DNA of 25,595 nt, taken from positions 1-25,595 of the IMG/VR virus record IMGVR_UViG_3300031951_001098; one strand, 5' to 3'. How positions within the stretch are numbered: position 1 is the first letter of the stretch; every line of letters begins with the position of its first letter. The translations under genes were made by a program, and so were the position numbers. The notes below the pieces were generated by a model that saw only the letters and a list, made by a program, of their open reading frames with translations, searched no databases and was not told where the DNA came from. The DNA comes from a virus. Positions 1,961 through 25,595 of this stretch are shown one piece after another.

Positions 1961-1962
1961 TT

Positions 1963-3011: not shown

Positions 3012-3068
3012 CCCCTGTAGCACGCCCCGTGAGGCCCGTCGAGGCCCGCAACGCACAAGGAGGTGCCT

Positions 3069-3422: not shown

Positions 3423-3431
3423 GGCTGCACC

Positions 3432-3689: not shown

Positions 3690-3693
3690 CGCA

Positions 3694-4434: not shown

Positions 4435-4718
4435 GATTCTTTCGAACGGCGAACGAGACGCTGTACGAGACGATCCGGCTGCAACTGGACGCCGCGTGGG
4501 GGCATCCGTCCGCAGACGGGCAAACCGTCACCTGCTTCGACCCAGCCGACGTAGCCCCGCATGACAGTTCTGGTAGGGTGCTTCTGGCTGTGCATGCTGA
4601 GTTCGCAACGTGGGAGCCAGCCGCAACGATCCTGCCGCAACTCCTCGCTAGCGGCGCCGTAGAGGAGATCACGCAGCAGACATACATGGCGGCCCTGCCG
4701 CAAACCCCCGAACCGTGA
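4431..4718 (+). CDS. short protein coupled to the LamG-like gene, unknown function
   Basis: This 95-residue protein starts at an ATG overlapping the LamG-gene stop by 4 bases, so translation is probably coupled. The sequence has an N-terminal segment (MRFFRTANETLYETIRLQLD) and a hydrophilic middle. Its C-terminal part (HAEFATWEPAATILPQLLA) could form a helix. I recognise no catalytic motif, signal peptide or membrane segment. The tight coupling suggests it works with the LamG-like protein, for example as an assembly helper. It ends only 10 bp from the end of the convergent integrase gene and so marks the end of the rightward late-gene run. Confidence 0.6.
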   Translation: MRFFRTANETLYETIRLQLDAAWGHPSADGQTVTCFDPADVAPHDSSGRVLLAVHAEFATWEPAATILPQLLASGAVEEITQQTYMAALPQTPEP

Positions 4719-4730
4719 CTGCATCGGTTC
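4710..4730. terminator. possible bidirectional hairpin between convergent genes
   Basis: GAACCG at 4710-4715 and CGGTTC at 4725-4730 form a 6-bp perfect inverted repeat with a 9-nt loop, between the end of the plus-strand short gene and the end of the minus-strand integrase gene. The position suits a shared terminator, but no T-run follows on either side, so this is weak. Confidence 0.3.
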
Positions 4731-5622: not shown

Positions 5623-5818
5623 CGTCGCGCATCATGCGGTTTGTGACAATCAAGACTTTTTCGATTCGGCAGTGCGGGTACTCGGCACCCTTGGTCGCGG
5701 ACCAGACGGTTTTCGCCTTTCGTTTTGCCCCTGCCGCGGACTTTGCCCAGGTCGGCATTTCGTCGGCATCGGCAACCTCACCGTCTGTCCACTCGATCAA
5801 AACAGCGTATTTCCGCAC
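5615..5818 (-). CDS. small protein upstream of the integrase, unknown function
   Basis: The frame starts with GTG at 5818, giving 67 residues beginning MRKYAVLIEWTDGEVADA. AAAGGA lies 9 bases upstream on the minus strand. A longer version from ATG 5860 (81 residues) would run into the tRNA-like attachment sequence and is less likely. The protein is basic in the middle (KSAAGAKRKAKTV) with a hydrophobic strand near the end (CRIEKVLIVTN). Its last 8 bp overlap the integrase gene, so the two are probably transcribed and translated together. A role in directing or controlling integration is possible from position only; no family is recognised. Confidence 0.55.
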   Translation of the reverse strand: MRKYAVLIEWTDGEVADADEMPTWAKSAAGAKRKAKTVWSATKGAEYPHCRIEKVLIVTNRMMRDVA

Positions 5819-5857
5819 GTTTTTGCGTCCTTTCTGGTGGTTTCTCGCGTCCTGCTT

Positions 5858-5887
5858 CACCCGGGGGTTCGAATCCCCTATCCTCCA
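5858..5887 (+). other. tRNA 3'-end fragment, probable attP/att core site
   Basis: The sequence contains a complete T arm (five G at 5863-5867, loop TTCGAAT, then CCCCT) followed by a 7-base acceptor half ATCCTCC and discriminator A at 5887. No matching 5' acceptor half (GGAGGAT) or anticodon arm lies in the preceding 80 bases, so this is only the 3' end of a tRNA gene. That is the classic form of a phage attachment site, which restores the host tRNA gene on integration. It lies next to the integrase module. Whether it is attP in a free genome or a prophage end cannot be told from this window. Confidence 0.8.
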
Positions 5888-5919
5888 CTGACGCGGGTAA
5901 CCTAGCGGGGACGGAAAAT

Positions 5920-6480
5920 ATGGTCAAGTTGGCGTATCTTGCCCAAGCGGTCGGGTCTGCCGAGGCGGCGGCGATCCTCGGCGTTCATTTTACCCAACCG
6001 CGCAAGATGGTTGAAAAGGGGCAACTCACCGCCCATATGCTGGCCGACAGCCTCTACACCGACGAGCCGACCAGAACCTTCGCGATCTACGACGGCGGCG
6101 AGTGCGAGGCGAACTTTCAGGAGTACGACGAGGCGTACCGGGAGAGCGGCGGTAAGACGAAGCGTCGGCCCAGGGCGTGGCTCCACACGCGACCCGACGT
6201 TCTTCGGCACCTGCGGGCCGTCAAGACGCCGATCGAGTTCTCCGACGCCATCGGAATGGCCGAGGCGGCCAAAATCCTCTGCGTCCACCAGACTCTGATA
6301 CCGCGGCTGGTGACGCTCGGGAAAATCATCGGCCGCAGGCCGTGGAACCCTCGCGGCGGCAAGGGGCCGAAAATCTACATCATCTCCAGACAGTCCTGCC
6401 AGGAGAACATCCGGCAGACGCGGGCCAAGGAATCCGCCGGAACGAAGCCCGGCCGGAAGCGTCGGAAGAAGGTGTCTTGA
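5920..6480 (+). CDS. tandem helix-turn-helix protein (excisionase/MerR-like fold), possible regulator or excisionase
   Basis: This is a 186-residue protein with two related HTH units. The first is near residues 10-42 (VGSAEAAAILGVHFTQPRK...GQL) and the second near residues 110-142 (IGMAEAAKILCVHQTLIPRLV...GKI). Both match the pattern of the excisionase/MerR winged-helix family (xAAxILxVHxxxxxxxVxxGxI). The C terminus is very basic (TKPGRKRRKK), suiting DNA binding. It is the first rightward gene after the attachment site and diverges from the integrase pair, so it may be the excisionase, a lysogeny regulator, or both. ATG 5920 is only weakly preceded by a purine-rich stretch. The frame continues upstream through the att fragment, but those residues lack protein character. 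Confidence 0.72.
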   Translation: MVKLAYLAQAVGSAEAAAILGVHFTQPRKMVEKGQLTAHMLADSLYTDEPTRTFAIYDGGECEANFQEYDEAYRESGGKTKRRPRAWLHTRPDVLRHLRAVKTPIEFSDAIGMAEAAKILCVHQTLIPRLVTLGKIIGRRPWNPRGGKGPKIYIISRQSCQENIRQTRAKESAGTKPGRKRRKKVS

Positions 6481-6529
6481 CCCGTAGCCAATGCTCGGAT
6501 ACAGTGCCTCCCGCTCAAGGAGGACGACC

Positions 6530-7915
6530 GTGCGTTGCCTGTGGCAGCATCAAGAGGACGCGATCAAGTGGGCGCTCGACCGCCAGTCGGCGATCCTGCA
6601 CCACGGCATGGGCAGCGGGAAAACCGCGTCGGCCCTCGAGTACATTCGCCGCCTTGGCGCGACGCGGACGCTGGCCTGCTGCCCGAAAGCCGTCATTCCG
6701 GCGTGGGTGAAGCAGGCTGGCCTCTGGTTCCCTGACCTCCGCGTCGTCCCGCTCGAGCAGGCCGGCGCCGCCTCGAAGGAAAAGGCCGTCGCCGCGGCCC
6801 TCGCGGACACTTCGCCGGTTCTCGTCGTCTGCAACTACGAGAGCGTCTGGCGGCTCAAGTCCATCGAAAAGGCGAAGTGGGACTGTTTCGTCTGGGACGA
6901 AATCCACCGCCTCAAGAGCGCCTCCGGGGTCGCCAGCCGCTGGGCGGCGAAGATGGTCAAGAACAACCCGACGGCCCGCCGGCTCGGCCTCACCGGCACG
7001 CTCATCCCGCATTCGATCCTCGACGCCTGGGCGATCTACCGGGCCGTCGAATCGCCGGCGTGCGAGACGTTCGGGACGTCCTACACGCTCCACAAAGCAA
7101 ACTACGCGATCTTCGCCAACGGGCCGCAGAAGTTCGTCGTCGGCTTCAAGAATTTGTCGCAGGCGAATCGGAAGATCGCCTTGACGACCCACTACGTCCG
7201 CACCACCGACGTCATCGACCTGCCGCCGATCTCGTTCCACGACGTCACCTGCGAACTGTCACCGCAGGAGTCACGCCTGTACCGCGAGGTCGAGAGCGAG
7301 TTCTGCGCGGTCTGCGACTCTGGCAGTGTCACGCCAAAGAATGCTTTGGAGCAACTGCTGCGGCTACAGCAAATCTGCGGTGGATATGTCCGGTTCGACG
7401 ACGAGAAGTCGGCCACTAGAATTGACGAGCATCCCGCCAAGGCTCAGTCGCTGTCTGATATGCTGGGGGACTTGCCCGCGTCGGAGCCTGTGGTGATCTT
7501 CTGCCGATTCAAGAGCGACATCGAGGCGGCGAAGGGCGTGGCCGAGGCTCTGGGCCGGAAGGTCAGCGAACTCTCTGGTGCCAAGAACGAGCTGGCCGAT
7601 TGGCAACAAGCACAGACATCCGTCCTCGTCGCGCAGATTCAGTCGGGCGGCATCGGGATCGATCTCACCAGGGCGGCATACTGCTGGTTCTATTCGCTCG
7701 GCTACTCGCTCGCGGAGTACGAGCAGGCCGTGGCGCGGCTCCACCGCCCAGGCCAGACGGCGAAGACCGTCATCTACCACCTTGTCGCCACGATTGGCGG
7801 CCGGTCCACCGTGGACGGCCGGGTCTATGCGGCGCTTCGTGAACGGAAGGAAGTCGTGAATGAACTCATCGAATCCTACAAGCACAGACAACACGCTGTC
7901 GGCAATCCTGGCTGA
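6530..7915 (+). CDS. SNF2/DEAD-type superfamily 2 helicase
   Basis: This 461-residue protein is read from GTG 6530, chosen because AAGGAGG lies at 6517-6523 and the protein then begins with the usual substrate-entry segment (LWQHQEDAIKWAL). Motif I is GMGSGKT, motif II is WDEIHRLK, motif III is LTGT, and motif VI is QAVARLHRPGQT near the C terminus. These define the SNF2-like branch of ATP-dependent DNA translocases. The length matches the compact helicases common in phage replication modules, which may remodel protein-DNA complexes or assist replication and recombination. The downstream coiled-coil gene overlaps it by 56 bp, a strong sign of co-translation. An ATG at 6491 in frame lacks a Shine-Dalgarno site. 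Confidence 0.9.
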   Translation: MRCLWQHQEDAIKWALDRQSAILHHGMGSGKTASALEYIRRLGATRTLACCPKAVIPAWVKQAGLWFPDLRVVPLEQAGAASKEKAVAAALADTSPVLVVCNYESVWRLKSIEKAKWDCFVWDEIHRLKSASGVASRWAAKMVKNNPTARRLGLTGTLIPHSILDAWAIYRAVESPACETFGTSYTLHKANYAIFANGPQKFVVGFKNLSQANRKIALTTHYVRTTDVIDLPPISFHDVTCELSPQESRLYREVESEFCAVCDSGSVTPKNALEQLLRLQQICGGYVRFDDEKSATRIDEHPAKAQSLSDMLGDLPASEPVVIFCRFKSDIEAAKGVAEALGRKVSELSGAKNELADWQQAQTSVLVAQIQSGGIGIDLTRAAYCWFYSLGYSLAEYEQAVARLHRPGQTAKTVIYHLVATIGGRSTVDGRVYAALRERKEVVNELIESYKHRQHAVGNPG

Positions 7916-8309
7916 GATCGCCAGCATCGACAAGCAAACGGTCGAGGCGAATGACCGCCTGGATCAACTCAAGACCCGCCGCCAGCACCTCGAGTCGCTC
8001 GCGGTCGAGGAGATGACGACACAACGCTTGGACGGAGTCAGGGTTGCAGGGAGGTCGTGGAGGGTCGAGTTCGACCACTTCATGTCGGTTACGGAGGACC
8101 GGAAGGAGGCTGTCATCGAGGCGGCGAAGGCTGCCGGCTGCTGGAAGCAGTTGGAAAGCGTCAACACCGCTCGGCTGAAGAGCCTCCTGCGTGAGATGGC
8201 GAAGGAGGCGGGCAAGGACGCCCGCTCCTCCCACTCCGAAGGCACCCCGTTCGCTGGTCTTGTCGGGGAGCACGTTGCCCCCCGGCTGCGTCATGTCACT
8301 GTTGGCTGA
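7860..8309 (+). CDS. coiled-coil protein of the replication module (Gp157-like candidate)
   Basis: This is a 149-residue protein starting at ATG 7860, with GGAAGGAAG just upstream, inside the end of the helicase gene. Residues 15-60 (LAEIASIDKQTVEANDRLDQ...) form a long charged heptad-like helix. This is followed by a short beta region (VRVAGRSWRVEFDHFMSV) and a second helical part containing SVNTARLKSLLREM. The layout (coiled coil, small beta unit, helical tail) resembles the siphovirus Gp157 group of phage replication-associated proteins. I cannot show homology, so treat that as a suggestion. Its overlap with the helicase and closeness to an SSB-like gene place it in DNA replication or recombination. 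Confidence 0.65.
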   Translation: MNSSNPTSTDNTLSAILAEIASIDKQTVEANDRLDQLKTRRQHLESLAVEEMTTQRLDGVRVAGRSWRVEFDHFMSVTEDRKEAVIEAAKAAGCWKQLESVNTARLKSLLREMAKEAGKDARSSHSEGTPFAGLVGEHVAPRLRHVTVG

Positions 8310-8344
8310 CGCCTGTTCGATGGGTTCATGCAAGGAGAAATAGC

Positions 8345-9121
8345 ATGACGACTGCGATTGCGACGAAGACGATCGACTACCCCGGCCTCGCGGCCGACAG
8401 TCGGCAGATGCGGATCATCGAGGCGAACCTCGAGGGCGAGCCGATGCGGGAGCAAGACCTCGTGCGGGTCAAGACTCCAGCCGGCGGCGGCACGAAGTGG
8501 TCGGTGCCGGTTAACGGCAACGAGGAAGCGGTCGATGAGATCGTCGGCCTCTGCGTCTGCATCGCCAACCGTGGCGTGCTCTGGCCGCAGGACGACCCGA
8601 CGGACCAGCGGCCGGTGATCGTGACGAACGATCTCCTCGTCGGCTACCGCGTGTCGGATGACCTCGGGACGATCGATCCGAAGGCGCTCGAGAAGCACCG
8701 CATCGGCGACCGCCGATACGACTGGGTTGGGTTGTCGAACTCAACTGAGTTCGGTTTCAAGTCGGCCCGTGGCGGTGAAGGCAAGAAGTGCAAGGAGAGC
8801 CGCGTCGTCGCCGTCCTCCGCGAGGGCGAGATGTGGCCGGTCTTGGTCACCGTCGGGCCGGGGAGCCTCGGCGGCTTCCTCTCGTGGAAGAAGAGGTTGC
8901 CCTCGTTCCACTACGAGTGCGTGATCGGGCTGAAACTCGAGAAGGCGAAGAGCAAGGGCGGCCAGCCGTACAGCCTGATCGTCCCTCGGGTGATCGGCCA
9001 GATCAGCGAGGAGCAGGGCGAGGTGGCCCGGCGCATCTACGTCGAGCCGCTGAAGCGGATGTTCTCCGCGCCCCCGTTCGGTGCGGTCGTCGAGGCCGGC
9101 GGCGACCACGACGAGGAGTAG
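8345..9121 (+). CDS. conserved phage replication-module protein, possible ssDNA-binding protein
   Basis: This is a 258-residue protein. AAGGAG lies shortly before ATG 8345. The sequence is rich in beta-strand patterns with glycines, including TKWSVPVNGNEEAVDEIVG, RGVLWPQDDPTDQRPVIV, GGEGKKCKESRVVAVLR and EMWPVLVTVGPGSLGGF. The C terminus is acidic (GGDHDEE), a feature of many ssDNA-binding proteins, where it recruits partners. Its place between the helicase/coiled-coil pair and the primase fits an SSB role. I recognise the general pattern from phage genomes but cannot assign a named family. No enzyme motif is visible. The gene ends before a 213-bp gene-free stretch with a strong hairpin. Confidence 0.65.
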   Translation: MTTAIATKTIDYPGLAADSRQMRIIEANLEGEPMREQDLVRVKTPAGGGTKWSVPVNGNEEAVDEIVGLCVCIANRGVLWPQDDPTDQRPVIVTNDLLVGYRVSDDLGTIDPKALEKHRIGDRRYDWVGLSNSTEFGFKSARGGEGKKCKESRVVAVLREGEMWPVLVTVGPGSLGGFLSWKKRLPSFHYECVIGLKLEKAKSKGGQPYSLIVPRVIGQISEEQGEVARRIYVEPLKRMFSAPPFGAVVEAGGDHDEE

Positions 9122-9334
9122 TCCAAGGTGGCCGGGCCGGCGACCCGAACCCACGACTCATCACCGTGGGCCGGCAGCCCAGCCCGTCAGTGGCGTCGTA
9201 ACGACGGGAAGTCTGTCTGACCCTCTGGCGTTCTCCCATTCCGCCACGGCAGCGGGCGATTCGCCCCTCCCGGCCCCGCAGTCGCAGGGGCCGGGAGGGG
9301 ATTTCTCACAAGCAATCGAAGGAGTGGTTTGCGC
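9122..9334. other. gene-free stretch before the primase gene
   Basis: I see no convincing reading frame here. The first part contains CCCACG at about 9150 and CGTGGG shortly after, a short 6-bp inverted repeat. The second part contains the 14-bp hairpin described separately and then the Shine-Dalgarno site of the primase gene. The stretch probably holds the boundary between two transcription units. I could not pick out a convincing promoter. Confidence 0.4.
9264..9300 (+). terminator. strong GC hairpin, probable transcription terminator
   Basis: CCCCTCCCGGCCCC (9264-9277) and GGGGCCGGGAGGGG (9287-9300) form a perfect 14-bp stem with a 9-nt loop. ATTTCT follows, a weak U-rich tail. The position after the SSB-like gene and before the primase Shine-Dalgarno site fits an intrinsic terminator or attenuator. 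The poor T-run leaves open an mRNA-stability or regulatory hairpin. Confidence 0.6.
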
Positions 9335-11128
9335 ATGGCATTTGAGTTCGACCCAGACGCAATGTTCAAGGCGTGCGCCTTTTACCTGTCAAGGGGTCTG
9401 ATCCTCGTCCGCGTCCACGGCATCTACCCAGACGGCAGATGCACATGTGGGAACCCAGAGCACGCCATCGGCAAGGCCGGGGAGCGAAGCGTCGGAAAGC
9501 ACCCGGTCGGAGCTGACTGGGGGAGCCGCTGCGCGACCACAGAAGACCAGATTCTGGAGTGGCTCGAGGATGGCATCCCGTTCAACGTCGGGTGCCTGCT
9601 CGGGCCACGCGGCGGCATGATCGACAGCGAAGACGACTCGGTCGAGGCGAGGAACTACCGGAACTCCATCGGCATGGACGCCCTGGAGACGCCAACCTGG
9701 ACGAGCGGCAAGTCAACGCACCAGTTGACACGCTGGGACGACAGGCTTGCGGACTGCAAGGGGACGGACTGCCCGGGCGGCCTTGAGGTCCGCATCGGAG
9801 CCGGTGGCGCCGCCATCCAGAGCATCCTCCCGCCGTCGTGGCACCGCTCCGGCGTGCAGTATCAGTGGAAGCCGGGATTCAGTTTGGAAGACGTCGAGAT
9901 TGCCGAGACGCCGAAGCTGCTGCTGGTGGCGTTGTCGAACGGCGCCGGCCGTGGGGCCGCGAGGCCCGACGAAGGCCCGGTCAGCGCGATCCTGTTTGGG
10001 GAGGTGCCGGACGGGAAGCGTCACCGTGCGATCTTGAGGTGGACTTGGTGCAAGATCGTCAACCAGCGAAATCCGCTTGACAAGATGCAGCAGGAAATCT
10101 TGATCCGCGAGGTGATGCTGCTGGCGGAACACAACTGCAAGCCAAAAGCCGACGCGGATCACGTTCGCAAGATTATCAGCGACTGCTATGAGCACTACCG
10201 CAGGAAAACGGAGGCTGGCTGGCGACCGAACGACAGCGACTTTACAGAGCAGGCAACGGAGAGCGAGATCGCAGCCATCGAACGCGAGGCGGAATCTGCC
10301 ACCAAGCCTCGCGGCCCTATGGCCGGCAGCGGGTTTGAGCTGTACGGACTCAAGAAGGTCGTCTCGTCGAAGGCAGAAGCCTACGAGCCGAATGAGTGGA
10401 GCATCGAAATGATCCACTCCGACCCGCCGGAGATCGTCCTGGTCGTCCCCGCCTGGCGGCTGACGCCGTGCAAGGGACGCATCCACATGACACTGGACAC
10501 GTTCCGTTCGGCGCCGAAGGTTGCCTCGGCAGTCTTCAACGCCACGCGGAAATACATCCTCGACGGAGACTCTGGAAAGTGGCAGAAAATCTGGAAGGGA
10601 CACGACGCCTGCAAGGCGAACAATTTCCAGAGCGTCCCCGGATTGATGGAACTGCTCATCCAGAAGAAGCGGGAGGAGGACGACATCGAGGTCGGCACCT
10701 CGAGCCTGCGATACGCCCAGTTGGCGGCGTTCGTGCTCCAGAGCTTCAAGCGGGCAACGAAGCCGCGAGACGAGGAGAAACCGGAGCCGAACGAGTCTGG
10801 ACGCCCCTGCTGGGTGACGCCGGACGAGCTGTGGTTCCAGTGGGGGAAGATATGGGAGGAGATCGGAAGCGCGCACGACGTCGCCCCGGGCGAGCGGAAT
10901 CGCGTCCGGTCAAAACTGCTGGACGCGATGGCAGCCCGGGATTTCACGCACAAAAGGCACCGATTCGCGATCGGCCGGCTGGAGTACGTCGTCTTCACCC
11001 GCGAGTGGGTGGCCGCCCTTGAGTCGCTGGCATCGGGGGCCGAGAACGAATGGACAGTAAAGGGGGAGGTCGATGGGGGTCATGCAGAAACCCAAAATCA
11101 CCAGCCGTCCACCGTCCACGCAACGTAA
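9335..11128 (+). CDS. bifunctional DNA primase/polymerase (Prim-Pol) domain protein
   Basis: This is a 597-residue protein. The N-terminal 200 residues carry the Prim-Pol signature. DGRCTCGN with GKHPVGADW (residues 34-62) is the usual Cys/His entry segment. NVGCLLG...GMIDSED (84-100) carries acidic catalytic residues at Asp97 and Glu99. GLEVRIG and LPPSWHRSGVQYQW supply the conserved Gly/Arg and His residues. The family makes primers and can extend them. The middle and C-terminal parts are helical, without a clear helicase P-loop; the C-terminal part may serve as a DNA- or partner-binding domain. The ATG at 9335 follows GAAGGAG at 9318-9324. A separate helicase gene lies downstream, so primase and helicase functions are split between genes here. 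Confidence 0.85.
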   Translation: MAFEFDPDAMFKACAFYLSRGLILVRVHGIYPDGRCTCGNPEHAIGKAGERSVGKHPVGADWGSRCATTEDQILEWLEDGIPFNVGCLLGPRGGMIDSEDDSVEARNYRNSIGMDALETPTWTSGKSTHQLTRWDDRLADCKGTDCPGGLEVRIGAGGAAIQSILPPSWHRSGVQYQWKPGFSLEDVEIAETPKLLLVALSNGAGRGAARPDEGPVSAILFGEVPDGKRHRAILRWTWCKIVNQRNPLDKMQQEILIREVMLLAEHNCKPKADADHVRKIISDCYEHYRRKTEAGWRPNDSDFTEQATESEIAAIEREAESATKPRGPMAGSGFELYGLKKVVSSKAEAYEPNEWSIEMIHSDPPEIVLVVPAWRLTPCKGRIHMTLDTFRSAPKVASAVFNATRKYILDGDSGKWQKIWKGHDACKANNFQSVPGLMELLIQKKREEDDIEVGTSSLRYAQLAAFVLQSFKRATKPRDEEKPEPNESGRPCWVTPDELWFQWGKIWEEIGSAHDVAPGERNRVRSKLLDAMAARDFTHKRHRFAIGRLEYVVFTREWVAALESLASGAENEWTVKGEVDGGHAETQNHQPSTVHAT

Positions 11129-11206
11129 GTGCCTTATTTTCAAGGGTTTAGGCTGGACGCCTTGCCCATCTTAACAGACCGTCACACCGTCCACGGGGGT
11201 AAAGTC

Positions 11207-12862
11207 ATGGCAATCTGCGCAAGAGCGATAGGCGGGGCAGGGACCGGGAAGACCACGATGATGAAGGGCATCGCCGAGAAGGCTCTGTCGCGGCCTGAGA
11301 TGGCCGGCAATCCGCTGGCGCTTGGATTCTCGTCCATGACGCGGGCGGCCCGCACGGAGGCCGCCATGCGTTGTGGGAGGGCCTGGGGCGTCCCGCCGGA
11401 GGAATTGATGCAGCACGGGTGGTTCAAGACCGCCCACTCGGTGTGCTTCAAGATGCTGGGGGTGTCCCGGGGGGAGATCGTCGGCGGCGGGGGCGTCGAG
11501 GACGCCAAGTGGGTGTCGGAGGCCGTCGGCAGCGACGTCGCCTTCTCGATGGACGAGGAGGACGGCGGCGTCCAGGTCTACACCGGGGACAAGGTGGCGG
11601 CGGCGGCTCTGAACTACTGGAGCCTCGCCCGGAACCTCGTCATCCCGCTGCGGGAGGTGGTCGAGGCCGACCAAGACCCGGAGGCACCATCGGCCGACGA
11701 GGTTATCAAGCGGATCGAACTGTACGAGCAGGCGAAGCGGCTCGACGCCCGCGTCGACTTCACCGACCTCCTGGCCCGGTTCAGCGGGGTCTGGTTCCAC
11801 CCGGCGACCGGGCCGGAGTTGGTCACACCGGAGGGCGGCGTCCCCGACGACGTCGTGGGGTGGATTTTCGACGAGGCCCAGGACGCCAGCCGGCTGCTGG
11901 ATATGGCCTGCCGGCGGCTGGTGACGGGCGACTCGTGCAAGTGGGCGTGGCTCGTCGGCGACCCGTATCAAGTGCTGTACTCGTGGTCGGGGGCGAGTGC
12001 GGATCACTTCATGGGCTGGGAAGTGCAGAAGCAGTCGATCATGCCCAAGTCGTTCCGCTGCCCGAAGCCGATCATGCAACTGGGCGAACGCTGCCTCCAG
12101 CGGCTGCCCGACTACTGGGACCGCGGCATCGCCCCGGCCGACCACGACGGCGAGGTCATCGAGAGCGAGAACTTCGAGGACGAACTCTCCGACCTCCGGC
12201 CCGACGTAGACACCCTCGTCATCGCCAGGACGAACCGGGACGTTTCTCGGATCAAGAACATCCTCGAGGACGTCGGCGTGCCGTATCGGTACGTCAAGAG
12301 CCGCGGCGGCGCCCAGAACCGCGACAAGGCGATGGGCGGCCTCTGGAACCTCCAGCACGGCAACGGCGTCACGGGCGAAGAGTGGGGGCAAATCCTCGAA
12401 GTTCTGCCGTCGAAGACGACAGACGGCCGGGAGTGGCTCGAGCGCGGCAGCAAGGCTCACTGGAAGAAGGGGCAGTCGGAGCAGTACGACCGCATCTACC
12501 CGGAGGACTTGGGCGTGCTCGGGGCCACGACGCACCTGCGCGACGCGATCGCGTCGGGGGCGTGGAGCGGCCTGCCCGACGGCGGCACGAAGTGGGTGCG
12601 AGCTGCAAAGCAGTGGGGCGTCGAGGCCGTCAGCGAGCCGAAGATACGCATCGGCACGATTCACAGCAGCAAGGGCATGGAGGCGTCCAAGGTCGTGCTG
12701 CTGACCAGCGTCAACTGGAGGACCAGGGCCGCAGAGGAGAGCGACCCGGCGCGGTTCGCCGAGGAGCGGAGGATCGAGTACGTCGCCTGCACTAGGGCGA
12801 AGCACACGTTGGTTGTGGCGCATGACCCCAGATCGAAGACCCGAATGGAGTTGCCCGTATGA
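11207..12862 (+). CDS. UvrD/Rep-like superfamily 1 DNA helicase
   Basis: This is a 551-residue protein. Walker A (GGAGTGKTT) lies at residues 9-17 and motif II (DEAQD) near residue 222. Further SF1 motifs are LVGDPYQVLYSW (motif III), SFRCP (motif IV), GTIHSSKGMEA (motif V) and EYVACTRAKHTLVV (motif VI). It should unwind DNA 3' to 5' in replication, repair or recombination. ATG 11207 is preferred over GTG 11129 because the longer version adds an unusual leader, while ATG 11207 gives the normal short N terminus before the P-loop and has a GGGGG stretch upstream. The stop overlaps the next gene in an ATGA junction. The length is shorter than chromosomal UvrD, as is common for phage versions. 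Confidence 0.92.
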   Translation: MAICARAIGGAGTGKTTMMKGIAEKALSRPEMAGNPLALGFSSMTRAARTEAAMRCGRAWGVPPEELMQHGWFKTAHSVCFKMLGVSRGEIVGGGGVEDAKWVSEAVGSDVAFSMDEEDGGVQVYTGDKVAAAALNYWSLARNLVIPLREVVEADQDPEAPSADEVIKRIELYEQAKRLDARVDFTDLLARFSGVWFHPATGPELVTPEGGVPDDVVGWIFDEAQDASRLLDMACRRLVTGDSCKWAWLVGDPYQVLYSWSGASADHFMGWEVQKQSIMPKSFRCPKPIMQLGERCLQRLPDYWDRGIAPADHDGEVIESENFEDELSDLRPDVDTLVIARTNRDVSRIKNILEDVGVPYRYVKSRGGAQNRDKAMGGLWNLQHGNGVTGEEWGQILEVLPSKTTDGREWLERGSKAHWKKGQSEQYDRIYPEDLGVLGATTHLRDAIASGAWSGLPDGGTKWVRAAKQWGVEAVSEPKIRIGTIHSSKGMEASKVVLLTSVNWRTRAAEESDPARFAEERRIEYVACTRAKHTLVVAHDPRSKTRMELPV

Positions 12863-20653: not shown

Positions 20654-21198
20654 GCGACTCGGTCGTCGTGCCGCACAAACTCGCCCGCCTACGCGAGCTG
20701 CTGCTTTCGACGTCTCACCTGGACGGTGACATCGTCGAGGTCGGCGTCTACAGGGGCGGCAGCGCCAGGGTGCTCGTGGACAACGCCGGAACGTCGAAGG
20801 TGTACCTGTTCGACACGTTCACGGGCATCCCGCACCACAACCCGACCCTGGATGGCCGCTGGGGCGTCGGCTCGTTCGGCGACACGAGCGAGATTGCTGT
20901 CATGGATATGTTCGTCGGTGACTCGCGAGTGAGCGTCTACCCGGGCGTGTTCCCCGACGAGACTGGCGGGGTCATAGACTTCCGGCGGCTCCGGTTCGTC
21001 CACCTGGACGTTGACAACTACGACTCCTACACGGCCTGCCTGGAGTTCGTCTACGGCCTGGTCGTCCCCGGTGGCGTCATCGTATTCGACGACTACGGCG
21101 AAGACTGCTGCCCGGGTGCGAAGACTGCGGTGGACGAGTTCTTCATCGGCCGGGCGGATGTTGTCATTGACGGCACAGCGTATGTGGTGAAGCCATGA
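20650..21198 (+). CDS. TylF/macrocin-type O-methyltransferase-like protein
   Basis: This is a 182-residue SAM-dependent methyltransferase. The SAM-binding motif is GDIVEVGVYRGGSARVL. YLFDTFTGIP, the acidic metal-binding stretch RFVHLDVDNYDSY, and VPGGVIVFDDYG are typical of the TylF/MycF group, which methylates sugar hydroxyls in macrolides and surface polysaccharides. It is shorter than the founding members (about 250 residues), as is common in the surface-glycan relatives. It starts in an ATGA overlap with the ATP-grasp gene and ends overlapping the HAD gene, so it is part of the same operon. Confidence 0.85.
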   Translation: MSDSVVVPHKLARLRELLLSTSHLDGDIVEVGVYRGGSARVLVDNAGTSKVYLFDTFTGIPHHNPTLDGRWGVGSFGDTSEIAVMDMFVGDSRVSVYPGVFPDETGGVIDFRRLRFVHLDVDNYDSYTACLEFVYGLVVPGGVIVFDDYGEDCCPGAKTAVDEFFIGRADVVIDGTAYVVKP

Positions 21199-22073
21199 AG
21201 ACTGTGGTCGTCGACATGGACGGCGTGATCTGCGAGGAGCGGCCGACGTTCGAGCGGTCGCTGGCGAAGCCGCTGCGTGACGCCCGCGATAGGCTCGCTG
21301 CCATGCGCGATGATGGTCACCGGATCATCATCCACACCGCCAGGTCGTGGTCAGAACTTGCCATGACCGAGGAGTGGCTCTACGAGCATGGCATCGTCTA
21401 CGACCAGTTGGTCATGGGGAAGCCTGTGGCCGACGTCGTGGTGGACGACCGGGCTGTCACGAGCCTTGAGGAGGCGGAAGGTGTTACGGCTGGCGACACA
21501 TCGAAGAAACCCGTTGCAGAATCGCCAAAACAGTTACGCGAGCCAGTGGCATGGCGGGTGTACGCCACCGACGGCAGCGAGGTGGTCTACTCGTTGTACG
21601 AGCAGGCCCGAGCCGCCGCCGCCGACCTGAACTGGAGCGTGGAGCCGCTATACCGCAGCGGCGAAAATACACCCGACCCGCACGCTACACCGGGCGAGGG
21701 TATATCGCATTGCGAGGGTACCTCGCAACCTGTGGCGTGGGCGGTGCTGCTGGAGGACGGCCAGCGAATCTACGATGTATATGCCATCGAAGAGGACGCC
21801 AAGGCGATTGACGAGGCGGTAACTGGGAATCACGGTGTCGTCCCGCTCTACCGCCAGCCGCCGACCTGCCCCTACGTCGTCGGCAGGACGACGCTGCATT
21901 GCTCGCTGACGCCGTTCACGCTTACCGACGCGGAGCGGCAGTACATCACCTGTCAGGCAAACCGGGCGTGGCACAATGCGTCGGAGGCCGATGCTCGCGG
22001 AGATGCTGACTGGGCTAAGTGGCACCGGGACGAGGAACGCACGCTGCGGAGTCTGCTGGAGCGGACGAAGTGA
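21195..22073 (+). CDS. HAD-like phosphatase fused to two QPVAW-VPLYR modules and a helical tail
   Basis: This is a 292-residue protein. Residues 1-95 form a small HAD-like domain, with nucleophile motif DMDGV (Asp7 and Asp9), IIIHTARS, GKPVADVVVDDRAV and a YD-Q linker. This resembles the compact HAD proteins near sugar loci. After a linker come two repeats of the same design: EPVAWRVYATDG...VEPLYRS (about 118-155) and QPVAWAVLLEDG...VVPLYRQPP (about 176-222). The C-terminal helical part starts at LTDAERQYI and ends SLLERTK. The repeats and tail match the passenger proteins of the cassette array that starts just downstream, so this gene links the two regions. The HAD part may act on a sugar phosphate; the modules have no known function. 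Confidence 0.8.
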   Translation: MKTVVVDMDGVICEERPTFERSLAKPLRDARDRLAAMRDDGHRIIIHTARSWSELAMTEEWLYEHGIVYDQLVMGKPVADVVVDDRAVTSLEEAEGVTAGDTSKKPVAESPKQLREPVAWRVYATDGSEVVYSLYEQARAAAADLNWSVEPLYRSGENTPDPHATPGEGISHCEGTSQPVAWAVLLEDGQRIYDVYAIEEDAKAIDEAVTGNHGVVPLYRQPPTCPYVVGRTTLHCSLTPFTLTDAERQYITCQANRAWHNASEADARGDADWAKWHRDEERTLRSLLERTK

Positions 22074-22301
22074 TGGCGGTTCATATTGGAAACCGAGCGC
22101 AAATCGTTGAGTTTTGCATATAGATTGGGGGTCCGCTGCATCGCATCGTTCTCAGGGTGTTGATTCGATGGTCAATATGCCGAGCAATCGGAGAGCATTC
22201 GATAGCAGGAGCGGAACGACGTTGACCGGCCGCCCTGTGTGCGCCATGAGTTTGGGGACACCCTGAGAACGTGAAGGATCAGGAGCGGCGAGGAGAAGAC
22301 T
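22074..22301 (+). other. boundary region: AT-rich leader, half attC and gene-free minicassette
   Basis: There is no gene in this 228-bp stretch. It begins with an AT-rich part (22081-22126, including TTCATATTGG and GCATATAGATT) that stands out from the GC-rich surroundings and could hold a promoter for the array. A half attC-like site is at 22131-22154, then a 110-bp stretch without a reading frame, then the first complete attC at 22264. A 13-bp perfect inverted repeat (22148-22160 and 22258-22270) extends the R boxes. Confidence 0.5.
22131..22154 (-). repeat. half attC-like site (R''-L'' arm only)
   Basis: CCGCTG then an unpaired C, an 8-nt spacer and GTTCTCA follow the exact spacing of the other sites. 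The partner arm (TGAGAAC...CAGCGG) is not found upstream, so this is the outer half of a site left at the array edge. Confidence 0.65.
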
Positions 22302-22354
22302 ATGAACAAACCAACTGACGGTGCCGAGCCGTCTCCTGCATCCGCCGGTTCTCG
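22264..22354 (-). repeat. attC site 1
   Basis: TGAGAAC (22264) pairs with GTTCTCG at the end. Arm CAGGAG pairs perfectly with CTCCTG, and the inner CGGC with GCCG. One C and one T are unpaired in the plus-strand right arm. The ATG of the next gene lies in the central loop. Confidence 0.85.
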
Positions 22355-22652
22355 CTGGCCGCGTCTTGTTGTTGGCCTTGCGGCGAACATCGCTGGCCTC
22401 CTGTGCGTGATCTGGCCTGTGCTGCCGAAGCAGTGGGGTGCATGGGAGTTGGTCGGCCGATTGTTTGGCGCGAGCAAAGACCCAAGTATGGGCATTCAGT
22501 ACATGTTTTTCTGGCTGCTGACGGTTCCGTTTGGCTGGCTGCTGTGCTATCTCGGAGCAAAGACGGCGACTGGGTCTGGCGGCTTGGCGTGCATGGTGGC
22601 GATGGCGGTAGTCGGCGGCGCTGTCTACGCAATGGTCGCGCTAGCGGGCTGA
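22302..22652 (+). CDS. cassette gene 1: small multi-pass membrane protein
   Basis: This is a 116-residue protein whose first 17 residues (MNKPTDGAEPSPASAGS) are encoded by attC site 1. The rest is strongly hydrophobic, with about three to four transmembrane helices: WPRLVVGLAANIAGLLCVIW, MFFWLLTVPFGWLLCYLG, and LACMVAMAVVGGAVYAMVAL. The loops contain Gly, Pro and Trp. GAGGAG lies about 9 bases before the ATG, also within the site. It lacks the VAW...PLYR module of its neighbours, so it is a different passenger behind the same leader. Its function is unknown; small phage-encoded membrane proteins can act in exclusion or lysis, but nothing here proves it. Confidence 0.7.
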   Translation: MNKPTDGAEPSPASAGSRWPRLVVGLAANIAGLLCVIWPVLPKQWGAWELVGRLFGASKDPSMGIQYMFFWLLTVPFGWLLCYLGAKTATGSGGLACMVAMAVVGGAVYAMVALAG

Positions 22653-22657
22653 CAGTA

Positions 22658-22746
22658 CGAGAACGCACAGGACAAGGAGCGGCAAGCATGAACACTGACA
22701 ACACGCAGGGCGGTGCCGAGCCGTCTCTTGCATCCGCTGGTTCTAC
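22658..22746 (-). repeat. attC site 2 (degenerate)
   Basis: CGAGAAC at 22658 and GTTCTAC at the end form the R boxes. The right arm CTCTTG and ATCC keep the spacing, but the left arm (GGACAAGGAG) has two mismatches. It starts just after the stop of cassette gene 1 and contains the ATG of gene 2. Confidence 0.7.
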
Positions 22747-22927
22747 GGCGTGGATTGTTTCGCGGACGTGGCCGTTCAGTGCCATGACAATCGCCGGCCG
22801 TCCTGCAAAGGCAGAGCCGGGCGGCCCCGAAAGATTCATCCCGGTATTCAACACAAGGGCAGAGGCCGTCGCGTGGTACGGAAAAGACGACGCCAGCATT
22901 CAGCCACTCAAACTGGGCGACAAGTAG
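22688..22927 (+). CDS. cassette gene 2: small soluble protein
   Basis: This is a 79-residue protein. The leader MNTDNTQGGAEPSLASAGS comes from attC site 2. AAGGAG lies 11 bases before the ATG. The body (TAWIVSRTWPFSAMTIAGRPAKAEP..., then FNTRAEAVAWYGKDDASIQPLKLGDK) is a shortened form of the module seen in other cassettes: a beta strand start, a helix with the EAVAWY pattern, and a final strand (SIQPLKL, in place of VPLYR). No catalytic residues are evident. The stop TAG is two bases before the next site. Confidence 0.65.
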   Translation: MNTDNTQGGAEPSLASAGSTAWIVSRTWPFSAMTIAGRPAKAEPGGPERFIPVFNTRAEAVAWYGKDDASIQPLKLGDK

Positions 22928-22929
22928 CC

Positions 22930-23019
22930 GTAGAACGACAAGGATCAGGAGCGGCGAGGAACAAACATGACTACACAGAACGACACCAACGAGCCGTCTC
23001 TTGCATCCGATGGTTCTCA
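22930..23019 (-). repeat. attC site 3
   Basis: GTAGAAC at 22930 and GTTCTCA at 23013-23019. The left arm CAGGAG pairs with CTCTTG through one G-T wobble, and CGGC with GCCG. The two unpaired bases are at the usual positions. The site is 90 bp long and contains the ATG of gene 3. Confidence 0.83.
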
Positions 23020-23440
23020 GCCGGTGGCATGGGCAGTTCGCCGGACTGACGGATGGATTGCCAGCGTTTCAATGTTTGAGCGCACTGCGGAGTGCGAGGC
23101 TGGCAGGCGTGGCGACGGTTGGTCTGCTGTCCCGCTCTACCGTAAGTCGCAGCCCACGCTCACCGACGCGGAGCGAGAGGCGGTGGACAGGGTGCGGATC
23201 GCGTTCCGCGACATGGATCACAACGACATGACAAGGCAGCAGCTTGAAGATTACGAAGCGATCTGCCACCTACTGGAGCGGGTGCCTCTCTACGCGCAGC
23301 CGCAAGCGTTACTCGCGGCAGAGGAGCGCGACGCGGTGAGGTGGGCTGGCAACATGATTCCGTTGATGGCACACAAAGGAGCCGCAGTCGCCTACTGCCA
23401 CGCGGAGACGCTTCGGAAACTGGACGAACGACTGGGCTGA
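22967..23440 (+). CDS. cassette gene 3: two-module protein (QPVAW-VPLYR plus helical part)
   Basis: This is a 157-residue protein, the largest in the array. The leader MTTQNDTNEPSLASDGS is encoded by attC site 3. The first module (QPVAWAVRRTDGWIASVSMF...WSAVPLYRK) is followed by LTDAEREAVDRVRIAFRDM and a long helical region ending in a segment with ETLRKLDERLG. GTDG-like and PLYR features are shared with the HAD fusion upstream. The gene ends exactly in the TGA of the next R box (TGAGAAC). The ATG has a weaker Shine-Dalgarno (GAGGA) than the later cassettes. Function unknown; no enzyme motif. Confidence 0.75.
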   Translation: MTTQNDTNEPSLASDGSQPVAWAVRRTDGWIASVSMFERTAECEAGRRGDGWSAVPLYRKSQPTLTDAEREAVDRVRIAFRDMDHNDMTRQQLEDYEAICHLLERVPLYAQPQALLAAEERDAVRWAGNMIPLMAHKGAAVAYCHAETLRKLDERLG

Positions 23441-23527
23441 GAACGTGTACGATCAACAGCCGCTAACAAAGGAGGCGGCAAACATGAGCGACGATACTGA
23501 GCGGTCTGTTGCATCGGCTGGTTCTCA
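23438..23527 (-). repeat. attC site 4
   Basis: TGAGAAC (23438-23444) and GTTCTCA (23521-23527). Arms CAACAG and CTGTTG pair perfectly, and the inner CCGC pairs with GCGG. The unpaired T and C lie 6 nt apart in the right arm. The 37-nt loop holds AAAGGAGG and the ATG of gene 4. Confidence 0.88.
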
Positions 23528-23798
23528 GCCGGTGGCGTGGATGACGGTCATCCCGTTGTGGCATGGCGGCGGACCGGCCGTAGACAGGGTCTTTCTTTGC
23601 GAGCGAGAGGCCTTGGAGGCGAAAGAGTGGAGGGACGCCAGCACGGAGCGTGGCGCAGACATCGTCCCGCTCTACCGCTCGCTCACGCTCACCGACGAGG
23701 AGCGGGAGGCGATTGCGTGGTTTTCCATTTACTCCGACACGCCAGGAGAAGAGCGGCACGCGGTTGTGCTGGCAAAACTGTTGCAACGGACGAACTGA
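23484..23798 (+). CDS. cassette gene 4: two-module protein
   Basis: This is a 104-residue protein starting at ATG 23484, with AAAGGAGG 8 bases upstream in the attC loop; an upstream in-frame GTG at 23445 is not needed. The leader MSDDTERSVASAGS is site-encoded. Module one is QPVAWMTVIPLWHGGGPAVDRV...GADIVPLYR, and module two is LTLTDEEREAIAWFSIYSD...VVLAKLLQRTN. The modules follow each other as in the HAD fusion protein. The final TGA is part of attC site 5. Confidence 0.78.
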   Translation: MSDDTERSVASAGSQPVAWMTVIPLWHGGGPAVDRVFLCEREALEAKEWRDASTERGADIVPLYRSLTLTDEEREAIAWFSIYSDTPGEERHAVVLAKLLQRTN

Positions 23799-23885
23799 GA
23801 ACGTGTACGATCAACAGCCGCGAACAAAGGAGGCGGCCAACATGAGCGATACGAATGAGCGGTCTGTTGCATCCGCTGGTTCTCA
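23796..23885 (-). repeat. attC site 5
   Basis: TGAGAAC (23796-23802) and GTTCTCA (23879-23885). Arms CAACAG/CTGTTG and CCGC/GCGG are perfect. The site is 90 bp long. The loop contains GAACAAAGGAGG and the ATG of gene 5. Confidence 0.88.
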
Positions 23886-24144
23886 CGGTGTGGCCGCTGC
23901 GTGGGCTGCGTTTGCAGACGACACCGGCGACACCGGAGTTACGTCCCTGAACCGAGCGTCTGTCGAGGAGGTGGCGAACAGGATGGGCTGGAGCGTCGTC
24001 CCTCTCTACCGCTCGCCCACGCTCACCGACGAGGAGCGGACGGCCATCGGATTGGCTCGTTCGCTGCTTGAGGATTACAAGATGAGCCGCCTCCACAACG
24101 CTGCGGACGAGGTGCTGGAGCGTCTTTTGGATCGGGCGAAGTGA
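23842..24144 (+). CDS. cassette gene 5: two-module protein with altered first segment
   Basis: This is a 100-residue protein with the site-encoded leader MSDTNERSVASAGS. The first module is HGVAAAWAAFADDTGDTGV...MGWSVVPLYRS, where the usual QPVAW is replaced by HGVAAAW. The second is LTDEERTAIGLARSLLEDY... with the ending EVLERLLDRAK. ATG 23842 is preceded by AAAGGAGG. The stop TGA lies in attC site 6. The shared end of the two modules with other cassettes points to one protein family diversified along the array. Confidence 0.78.
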   Translation: MSDTNERSVASAGSHGVAAAWAAFADDTGDTGVTSLNRASVEEVANRMGWSVVPLYRSPTLTDEERTAIGLARSLLEDYKMSRLHNAADEVLERLLDRAK

Positions 24145-24231
24145 GAACGTGTACGATCAACAGCCGCTAACAAAGGAGGCGGCAAACATGAGCGACGATA
24201 CTGAGCGGTCTGTTGCATCGGCTGGTTCTGT
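24142..24231 (-). repeat. attC site 6
   Basis: TGAGAAC (24142-24148). The first 88 bases are identical to site 4 (23438-23525), and the end reads GTTCTGT. Arms and unpaired bases are as in site 4. Confidence 0.87.
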
Positions 24232-24376
24232 GGCGGACGGCCGCCCTGGCCTCTGGCCTGCTGACTTGCCTCCATGCCCACAAGCCAATGCGCGGTCTTT
24301 GTACGGAGACGCTGTTTCGGTTGCGTGGTGGCAGTCAGTGCAGATTTCTGTGGCGAGGCAGTTGAGCGACAAGTAG
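24188..24376 (+). CDS. cassette gene 6: short protein, possibly a truncated passenger
   Basis: This is a 62-residue protein with the leader MSDDTERSVASAGS from site 6. The body (VADGRPGLWPADLPPCPQAN, then SLYGDAVSVAWWQSVQISVARQLSDK) lacks the PLYR and LTDEER segments. A WW pair within VSVAWWQ and a helical end are the only notable features. It is the shortest complete gene in the array and could be a remnant or a separate small protein. AAAGGAGG precedes the ATG as in gene 4. The stop is TAG, outside the R box, unlike most others. Confidence 0.6.
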   Translation: MSDDTERSVASAGSVADGRPGLWPADLPPCPQANARSLYGDAVSVAWWQSVQISVARQLSDK

Positions 24377-24379
24377 GCC

Positions 24380-24469
24380 ACAGAACGCCGAAGATCACAA
24401 GCCGCGAACTAGGAGGGCGGCCAACATGAACGACACTGACGAGCGGTCTTGTGCATCGCGTGGTTCTCA
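24380..24469 (-). repeat. attC site 7
   Basis: ACAGAAC (24380-24386) and GTTCTCA (24463-24469). Arm CACAAG pairs with CTTGTG, a compensatory change relative to CAACAG/CTGTTG. Inner CCGC pairs with GCGG. The loop carries AACTAGGAGGGCGGC and the ATG of gene 7. Confidence 0.87.
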
Positions 24470-24755
24470 CGGGGACGCGGTTCGCGCCGCAGCCCTTGCC
24501 CTTTACGAGGTTGGCCGCTGGGTGTCGGTCGATGTTCCGAGAGAGAAGGCCGACGCCATGTGGGCCACGCTCCGGGACGCCCTTGGGTTGCGGCCCGGCC
24601 ATGCGACGGCTGGCGGGGTGGATGGCGGCGGCACAACGCCCGCGCTCACCGACGAGGAGCGGGAGGCGATTAGCGCGGCCGCCTGTATTTGCGAGGACGC
24701 TGGCCGGACGGAAATCGCGATTGCCGTCAACACGGCACTCTCGCGGCTGGACTGA
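24426..24755 (+). CDS. cassette gene 7: helical protein ending in the LTDEER module
   Basis: This is a 109-residue protein with leader MNDTDERSCASRGS from site 7. The first part (AVRAAALALYEVGRWVSVDVPREKADAMWATL) is helical and does not match QPVAW-VPLYR. The second part is LTDEEREAISAAACICEDAGRTEIAIAVNTALSRLD, the common helical module. This shows that the first module can be exchanged while the second is kept. The ATG follows AGGAGG. The final TGA lies in site 8. Confidence 0.72.
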   Translation: MNDTDERSCASRGSHGDAVRAAALALYEVGRWVSVDVPREKADAMWATLRDALGLRPGHATAGGVDGGGTTPALTDEEREAISAAACICEDAGRTEIAIAVNTALSRLD

Positions 24756-24842
24756 GAACGCCAGCGATCAGCGGCTCGCGACCTACGACCATGAACAAAC
24801 CTACCGACGCTCTCGCGGGTCCGCTGCATTGCTTGGTTCTCA
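24753..24842 (-). repeat. attC site 8
   Basis: TGAGAAC (24753-24759) and GTTCTCA (24836-24842). Arm CAGCGG pairs with CCGCTG, and inner CTCGCG with CGCGGG has one mismatch. Spacing is the same as in the others. It lacks the usual GGAGG in the loop. Confidence 0.85.
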
Positions 24843-25057
24843 CGGCATTCCTGCCGGCAGGGTCTATGTGGACTTCAGAGCCTCGCGGGCAGGAATACGC
24901 TTTGCGGCATGGCGACACGGTGCTGTTTTGGATTCCCGACGAGCGACAACCGGCCTATGGAGAGGTCTGCTATCTGTGGGGCTACGTTCCGGCGATTGTT
25001 AGCGGCAGCAAGACGTTTCGCTTTTGCGATGTGCAGTGGTGCTACGGTGGGCTGTAG
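24791..25057 (+). CDS. cassette gene 8: small protein read in a different frame through its attC
   Basis: This is an 88-residue protein if it starts at ATG 24791. It would then read MNKPTDALAGPLHCLVLTAF through the site, a different frame from the VASAGS leaders. No clear Shine-Dalgarno site is present, so an internal start such as the Met in AGSMWTSEP is possible. The body (EPRGQEYALRHGDTVLFWIPD..., then YGEVCYLWGYVPAIVSG..., ending DVQWCYGGL) is beta-rich with many aromatic residues and resembles a small SH3- or OB-like barrel. Function unknown. It ends with TAG 7 bases before site 9. Confidence 0.6.
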   Translation: MNKPTDALAGPLHCLVLTAFLPAGSMWTSEPRGQEYALRHGDTVLFWIPDERQPAYGEVCYLWGYVPAIVSGSKTFRFCDVQWCYGGL

Positions 25058-25064
25058 ACACAAG

Positions 25065-25154
25065 TGAGAACGTGAACGATCAACAGCCGCGAACAAAGGA
25101 GGCGGCGACTATGAGCGACGAAAATGAGCGGTCTGTTGCATCGGCTGGTTCTCA
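25065..25154 (-). repeat. attC site 9
   Basis: TGAGAAC (25065-25071) and GTTCTCA (25148-25154). Perfect CAACAG/CTGTTG and CCGC/GCGG arms with the two unpaired bases. The loop contains GAACAAAGGAGG and the ATG of gene 9. Confidence 0.88.
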
Positions 25155-25458
25155 GCCGGCGATGGCGATTGTGAGCAGCGATGAGGCCGCGTTGCGGATC
25201 ATCGTTCGGCAGCAGCGATCCGAGATCGCACGCCTCAAGGAAGCCATACGCCGGCTCGCGGAGGAGGATGCCACACTGTCGGTGTGCAACGGCAACGTGA
25301 CGGTGATAATGGACGCCACCATTACCGCAGAGCAGCGGGATGCGATTGCCTATATCGCGCTGATGCACTCGCGGCTGAAGTGTGACGGGCACCGGCCAGA
25401 AAGAACAAAGCAGCAGGACTTGGACACTGTTTGGGGATTTCTGGAACAGACTAGGTGA
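25111..25458 (+). CDS. cassette gene 9: coiled-coil protein with LTDEER-like module
   Basis: This is a 115-residue protein with leader MSDENERSVASAGS and AAAGGAGG before the ATG. After QPAMAIVSSDEAALRIIV comes a charged helix (QQRSEIARLKEAIRRLAEE) that should form a coiled coil. A short beta part (LSVCNGNVTVIMDA) follows. The last part is ITAEQRDAIAYIALMH...TVWGFLEQTR, a variant of the common helical module. The QP at the start recalls QPVAW, but the module itself is replaced. The stop TGA is in site 10. Confidence 0.72.
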   Translation: MSDENERSVASAGSQPAMAIVSSDEAALRIIVRQQRSEIARLKEAIRRLAEEDATLSVCNGNVTVIMDATITAEQRDAIAYIALMHSRLKCDGHRPERTKQQDLDTVWGFLEQTR

Positions 25459-25545
25459 GAACAACAAGGATCAGCGGCTCGCAGCCGCAGGAGGATGACA
25501 TGAGTTCCGACGTTGACGCGAGTCCGCTGCATCCGGTGGTTAGCC
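25456..25545 (-). repeat. attC site 10
   Basis: TGAGAAC (25456-25462) and GTTAGCC (25539-25545), the latter close to the classical GTTRRRY box. Arm CAGCGG pairs with CCGCTG and inner CTCGC pairs perfectly with GCGAG. Both unpaired bases are in place. Confidence 0.87.
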
Positions 25546-25595
25546 GTCGGTGGCGACTATCTCCCGCATACATTTCGGTGCTGCTGCACTGCTAC
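25500..25595 (+). CDS. cassette gene 10: N-terminal part, cut by the window edge
   Basis: ATG 25500 follows CAGGAGG at a 5-base spacing, inside site 10. The visible 32 codons read MSSDVDASPLHPVVSRRW and onward without a stop to the edge. As in gene 8, the frame through the CCGCTGCAT arm gives SPLHP rather than SVASAGS. Nothing can be said about function. Confidence 0.55.
   Translation, partial: MSSDVDASPLHPVVSRRWRLSPAYISVLLHCY

Follow-up and report, generated by a model that had tools for sequence, protein, structure and literature searches.

How do genes come to be gathered, expressed and exchanged in an array of integron-type recombination sites (attC) that sits in a phage? Integrons are usually treated as gene-capture devices of bacteria, with phages as rare carriers. 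The question is raised by the IMG/VR virus record IMGVR_UViG_3300031951_001098, analysed here over its whole length of 25,595 bases (the window), where the repeats at 22.1-25.6 kb are ten complete attC sites of 81-83 nucleotides (nt), counted from AAC to GTT, and one right half. The answer that we consider quite probable is an integrase-less cassette array (a cluster of attC sites lacking integron integrases, CALIN) in a phage of Planctomycetota, built in a reversed format specific to phages, with the start codon of each gene, usually together with a Shine-Dalgarno (SD) sequence, in the loop of its attC (the variable terminal structure, VTS) and the stop codon abutting the next attC. A further proposition, for which the arguments on either side seem to us evenly balanced, is that planctomycete phages evolved this reversed format with in-hairpin starts as their own, and that its cassettes form one large pool shuffled in trans by the integron integrases (IntI) of their hosts.

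Ten attC sites and the genes between them

The sites and genes of the array are listed in order along the window. Every complete site was returned by a geometric scan, and the E values are those of a covariance model, R1, described below; for attC, minus denotes the canonical top strand. Protein lengths are in amino acids (aa).

22131..22150, minus strand: right-hand half of an attC, CCGCTGCATCGCATCGTT, without a left half, recognised from its sequence
22268..22350, minus strand: attC 1, E 6e-12
22302..22652, plus strand: cassette gene 1, 116 aa, hydrophobic, ATG within attC 1
22662..22742, minus strand: attC 2, weakest of the ten, E 9e-6
22688..22927, plus strand: cassette gene 2, 79 aa, ATG within attC 2, in-frame translation through the site
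22934..23015, minus strand: attC 3, E 9e-14
22967..23440, plus strand: cassette gene 3, 157 aa, PVAW...VPLYR...LTDEERE-type, ATG within attC 3, stop 1 nt ahead of attC 4
23442..23523, minus strand: attC 4, holding AAAGGAGG and the ATG (23484) of gene 4, E 1e-15
23484..23798, plus strand: cassette gene 4, 104 aa
23800..23881, minus strand: attC 5, holding AAAGGAGG and an ATG (23842), E 4e-14
23842..24144, plus strand: cassette gene 5, 100 aa
24146..24227, minus strand: attC 6, holding AAAGGAGG and an ATG (24188), E 7e-14
24188..24376, plus strand: cassette gene 6, 62 aa
24384..24465, minus strand: attC 7, holding AGGAGG and an ATG (24426), E 2e-14
24426..24755, plus strand: cassette gene 7, 109 aa
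24757..24838, minus strand: attC 8, top score of the ten, another subtype with another reading frame, E 9e-19
24791..25057, plus strand: cassette gene 8, 88 aa
25069..25150, minus strand: attC 9, holding AAAGGAGG and an ATG (25111), E 8e-15
25111..25458, plus strand: cassette gene 9, 115 aa
25460..25541, minus strand: attC 10, holding AGGAGG and an ATG (25500), E 1e-13
25500..25595, plus strand: cassette gene 10, extending past the end of the record

With a geometric grammar in which AAC, GTT, the spacer lengths and the bulge positions are set, but no letter of the stem, the window yields exactly these ten sites, against a chance level of 0.017 per Markov-simulated window at the same threshold and 0 at one pair more. 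An earlier note, made from the sequence alone, had counted ten complete sites and one half site; the same ten are recovered by this letter-free scan, and the half lies at about 22131-22150. The AAC/GTT R boxes with paired flanks that it described are present in 10/10 sites, while its 8- and 9-nt spacers are made up of the canonical spacers, of 5 and 6 nt, and of a 3-bp stem (GAT/ATC). The two bulged bases, G and A, lie 6 bp apart on the minus strand, as it stated. Imperfect stem, extrahelical bases and 5/6-nt spacers are present in canonical polarity on the minus strand, in agreement with plasmid controls. In all ten sites, folding is predicted to be more stable for the plus strand than for the minus strand.

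The covariance model R1 was built from 55 attC sites of arrays lying beside the integron integrase gene (intI) in planctomycete chromosomes, aligned in canonical orientation. It carries out the kind of check that the earlier note had proposed, and matches 10/10 sites, all on the minus strand, with E values from 9e-6 to 9e-19; it finds no match elsewhere in the window. The half site, which R1 does not recover, is a probable remnant. As a control, the attC of aadA, cmlA and other class 1 integron plasmid sites were found by the model on their gene strand. An Rfam or tRNA identity for the repeats was considered and rejected.

The covariation of the stem arms reported in the earlier note is real: among the ten window sites, 20 cells are changed on both sides, against 6.3 in shuffles. 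In the alignment of viral sites the figures are 313 double-changed cells against 134, and the inner helix (15 pairs) of 107 distinct viral sites shows 261 double changes as against 2 single; because this alignment was fitted to the model, absolute covariation counts lean towards it. With so few single changes, G-T/G-U intermediates are nearly absent, so that selection would fit a DNA hairpin better than an RNA one. By structure, the window sites are attC. Ten of them with no intI, where at least two without intI nearby suffice to define a CALIN, place the array in that class; an intI in the record was looked for and rejected. The array reaches the end of the record, so that its right border is unseen. 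At its left, a 14-nt perfect inverted repeat (22147-22160 and 22258-22271) flanks an element of 117 nt between the half site and attC 1, in which there is no clear gene.

Cassettes back to front, with starts inside the sites

By the extrahelical bases, the canonical top strand of attC is the minus strand in the window, whereas the cassette genes are all on the plus strand; they are therefore antisense to the canonical polarity. The integron-array reading of the earlier note is supported, although it missed this polarity and the start codon inside each site. A cassette usually (not universally) has its gene on the top strand of attC, ending at its own site; here the genes are antisense and start in their own attC. 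On the gene strand of all the plasmid controls, the bulges of attC are in the 5' arm. Where arrays adjoin intI, in Lacipirellula and other planctomycetes, the sites have their usual orientation to intI and most genes are on the attC top strand. The longest open reading frame (ORF) is canonical in 269/331 bacterial cassettes and antisense in 139/196 viral ones, by a test that is noisy in GC-rich DNA. All sites of an array lie on a single strand, as holds for 111 sites across 16 viral loci. The viral cassette is attC, start and gene, back to front with respect to the cassettes of class 1 integrons and of planctomycete chromosomes.

The start codon belongs to the site itself. In the window an ATG lies in the loop between the stem halves of 10/10 sites, several times preceded by AAGGAGG, and the frame that it opens crosses the site into the next gene and stops before the next attC in nine cases, the tenth leaving the record. 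Within the same site family, an in-site ATG with a frame open for at least 120 nt beyond the site is found in 176 of 252 distinct viral sites against 36 of 474 bacterial ones, and if a strict SD is required the numbers become 119 and 6. Likewise, a gene that starts in one site and stops at -12..+3 nt of the next is present in 103/196 viral and 3/331 bacterial cassettes. Nearly all leaders, measured from ATG to GTT, are 40, 43, 49, 52, 55 or 58 nt long, that is, they vary in steps of three. When copies of the same cassette are compared, 220 mismatches of the cassette bodies fall 50/35/135 at codon positions 1/2/3 (p 6e-18); the same test on leaders alone is weakly positive. On these three grounds, open frames, lengths in steps of three and third-position changes, the cassette genes are, as far as sequence can tell, translated from the in-site starts.

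Two variants of the sites were observed. A short class of attC (about 41 nt from AAC to GTT), devoid of a start codon, is mixed among the long sites in L346 (e.g. 9900-9948 and 11574-11622), L035 and L313, and the genes that follow short sites begin within the cassette body. In G035 the attC before cassette 1 (L346:7172-7241) has no right end, apparently after an in-frame deletion, and the gene is still open: MSEVNEMSAWPRLV.

How far is this format already known? Clusters of attC without integrase have been described in phages, some of them functional with IntI1 (Qi et al., 2023, PMC9892861), in 21 phages of other hosts, with no Planctomycetota named and with DNA methylases among the cargo. 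The earlier note called such an array unusual beside phage genes; arrays of attC in phages do have this precedent, yet that work does not describe the present family, which is far larger. The likeness with the CALINs of Qi et al. (2023) lies in the absence of intI and in the methylase cargo; by contrast, the window family has its start codon inside the site and spans at least 120 contig stretches. In the published cultured phage TJE1, at the site that was checked, attC stands at the end of the upstream methylase gene on the same strand, which is the canonical arrangement, while the window family is reversed. A planctomycete attC model has already been published (PMC8352920). In Planctomycetota, the sedentary integrons of chromosomes, such as that of Lacipirellula limnantheis (L257), share with the window the GATCA/TGCAT core, the spacing and the extrahelical G and A; they differ in having intI, which in L257 lies at 7730-8680 on the minus strand, in genes lying mostly on the attC top strand and in in-site starts with open frames at background level. 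Class 1 cassettes (aadA1, aadA2, cmlA1) show the same succession, AAC(5 nt)3 bp, bulge, 6 bp, bulge ... (6 nt)GTT, but there the gene is ahead of attC on the same strand, and translation signals normally come from the 5' end of the cassette or from ORF-11 of attI1 (PMC8876359). Translation aids are thus known, as ORF-11 in attI1 and as short ORFs in attC (PMC8876359); in the open-access literature consulted, nothing was found that describes a whole class of reversed cassettes whose SD and start codon lie inside the attC that belongs to them. Phage CALINs are known, then, and what appears to be new is the reversed, translation-ready, phage-specific format.

Apparent exchange of cassettes between phages

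A pattern scan found the site family in at least 120 IMG/VR stretches, from contigs of up to 205 kb, and further searches added more loci. From these, 266 distinct cassette units were compared. Seventeen pairs share a gene body (84-100% identity) between flanks that are unrelated on both sides, these pairs being not all independent, as some cassettes occur in three loci. In such pairs the left attC is more alike than the right one (p 1.5e-4): sites at least 84% alike were found on the left in 10/17, on the right in 0/17, and in 5% of random pairs. Because it is the left attC, and not the right, that tends to stay with the gene when the flanks differ, the usual unit is attC plus the downstream gene, which matches the prediction of a crossover at the left AAC. 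The converse unit, a gene with the attC on its right, inserted as a fusion to the leader of a neighbour, was rejected, since the right attC never followed the gene across contexts. One small gene with one attC is thus found as a mobile unit in unrelated contexts. As cases in point, the body of cassette gene 1 has 89-91% nt matches in L083 and L346, in other contexts, that of cassette gene 6 is found at 93-94% nt in L313 and L086 among unrelated neighbours, and L077 and L091 have several cassettes in common, in a different order. It appears that cassettes, as units ready for translation, are shuffled among freshwater phages.

As for what is shuffled, most of 114 cassette proteins have no known family. 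DUF551 accounts for 15 matches, C5 DNA methylases for 5 and a small-terminase family for 3; further matches are to HNH, Dam, MT-A70, N6/N4 methylase and Mom. The presence of methylases and Mom points to a protection from restriction, and suggests that the cargo serves restriction evasion together with other host-specific functions.

Phage context and alternative readings

Upstream of the array, the window carries the following features.

779..12862, plus strand: phage replication/nucleotide block, with DNA repair exonuclease, deoxynucleotide monophosphate kinase, SNF2-type helicase, primase-polymerase and UvrD helicase
3694-4434, plus strand: virion structural protein-like gene, within that block
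4729..5622, minus strand: XerC/D-like phage tyrosine recombinase (PF00589 E 1e-10, PHROG integrase E 1e-32, no TIGR02249 match)
21195..22073, plus strand: last backbone gene before the array, a fusion of a HAD-like phosphatase domain with a PVAW/VPLYR/LTDE module, co-linear in relatives

The phage nature of the record is supported by its replication and virion-protein-like genes and by a terminase in two relatives, G024 and G031; in the window itself no terminase or capsid gene was identified, and 13/50 array-bearing records have a terminase match. G024 and G031 are co-linear with the window over 17.2-21.5 kb and bear other cassettes at the same place. Three more virus records (G071, G075 and G072) are co-linear at 76-92% nt as far as the gene before the array; G071 and G075 have one short attC at the corresponding place, and G072 stops before it. 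The short site of G071 (L342:17110-17160) was considered as a collapsed remnant, an idea that was rejected, the short class being common in arrays. G035 has cassette 1 and the gene preceding the array in common with the window, and diverges from the next attC onward. The same array with different cassettes, which the earlier note had suggested looking for in related contigs, is thus found, with gain, loss and reordering. No DNA match to the array exists among 50,697 cultured phage records, and the primase has distant matches only.

How would the cassettes move? Replication or entry would expose single strands, on which the plus strand of attC, presumably the recombinogenic one, would fold. During infection or lysogeny, the IntI of a planctomycete host could then act in trans and cut at the left AAC (GAA^C), excising, inserting or swapping cassettes, and each exchange would bring a translation-ready gene into a phage operon, in the same direction as the upstream genes. 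An intI (TIGR02249 above cut-off) is present in 18/20 planctomycete genomes carrying the attC site family; it is found neither in the window record nor in any of 50 array-bearing virus records.

Several observations weigh against this scheme. Recombination by a host IntI is what we infer, and no integrase is tied to these phages; the planctomycete host itself is suggested by the similarity of attC, not by an isolate. The phage-type site pattern occurs in 0/392 Planctomycetota genomes, so that there is no sign of entry into host arrays. Nothing like an attI site was found: there is only the attC right half at 22131-22150, and the first sites of L275 are ordinary attC. The virus records are fragments, and the longest-ORF test of polarity has the noise mentioned above. 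Finally, the left attC also differs in 7/17 of the shared-cassette pairs, some of them with near-identical genes. In L317:2538 / L044:7016 (reverse strand coordinates) and L327:4839 / L023:9475, genes 95-100% identical in nt follow attC of different subtypes, and the similarity breaks off at GGTT. The leader was swapped in frame, which implies exchange at the right-hand box as well. The seven pairs therefore call for a second type of exchange, either close to or at the right box, or through homologous recombination within the repeats.

The latter process might also account for the shuffling as a whole. The array would be real but not, or no longer, moved by an integron integrase, with homologous recombination between repeats during phage co-infection doing the work. 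The phages without intI (0/50 records), the exchanges that replace the left attC and retain the gene, and the long identical stretches common to site subtypes are all in keeping with this explanation, to which we nevertheless grant a minor share of probability: pairing and both extrahelical bases are kept as the letters change, so that selection on the fold persists, each array keeps to one strand and the right attC never follows a gene across differing contexts.

It is improbable that the phages use a XerC/D-like tyrosine recombinase of their own. PF00589 is found in 33/50 array-bearing records (an overlapping set of 50), and the window has a copy at 4729-5622, but such a gene is expected in any temperate phage, the six array records of more than 120 kb that were scanned have none, and the window copy has no match to the integron integrase model; on its sequence, it is not an integron integrase.

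Slightly less credit still can be given to the idea that the repeats act as leaders at the RNA level, either as translation attenuators or as a conserved N-terminal leader, that they multiplied along with a tandem gene family and that they resemble attC by convergence. To be sure, besides holding the SD and the start codon the sites code for an N-terminal peptide that recurs (ERSVASAGS...), and PVAW/VPLYR/LTDE modules, which that of gene 21195..22073 resembles, are common to several cassette proteins. However, the 261 double against 2 single (G-U type) changes of the inner helix are what a DNA stem would give, extrahelical bases and spacer lengths match those of attC beside intI, the cargo is diverse, the same cassettes occur in unrelated contexts, and planctomycete chromosomal sites share the structure without leaders. 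As for a chromosomal planctomycete integron misassembled onto, or misclassified as, a phage contig, the attC family is indeed that of planctomycetes and IMG/VR contigs are uncurated, but we regard this as very improbable, with co-linear relatives (G024 and G031 among them, with terminase) having an array at the corresponding position, behind the same phage genes, a site pattern missing from all 392 planctomycete genomes, gene polarity opposite to that of chromosomal arrays and cargo typical of phages.

The phage-specific cassette format is thus the reading that we retain. The attC family suggests that phages infecting a whole phylum maintain their own large cassette economy, made of anti-restriction and accessory genes, in which the problem of expression is solved by a ribosome-binding site and start codon placed in the recombination hairpin: one sequence would be at once single-stranded DNA substrate, messenger RNA leader and N-terminal coding region. 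If the pool is indeed shuffled in trans by host integrases, the gene-capture enzyme of the host would work for the phage. The family makes two ideas testable, the use of host IntI by phages and an evolutionary reversal of attC polarity, and a survey that takes cassette genes to lie on the top strand of attC may read arrays of this kind wrongly.

Some further observations concern the surroundings of the array. A phage-type attC is also present in L167, a 7.6-kb contig (JAIXPT010000147.1) of a metagenome-assembled genome binned as Planctomycetaceae, possibly a binned phage fragment. In the window, a C5 DNA methylase domain extends over two overlapping frames at 14607-16695 (N part 14607-15416, C part 15178-16695), split by a frameshift, an insertion or a sequence error. 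Upstream of the array, at 18720-21198, genes for a DegT aminotransferase, an ATP-grasp protein, a TylF-like methyltransferase and a HAD protein stand in a row, making up a small-molecule or glycan module in the phage.

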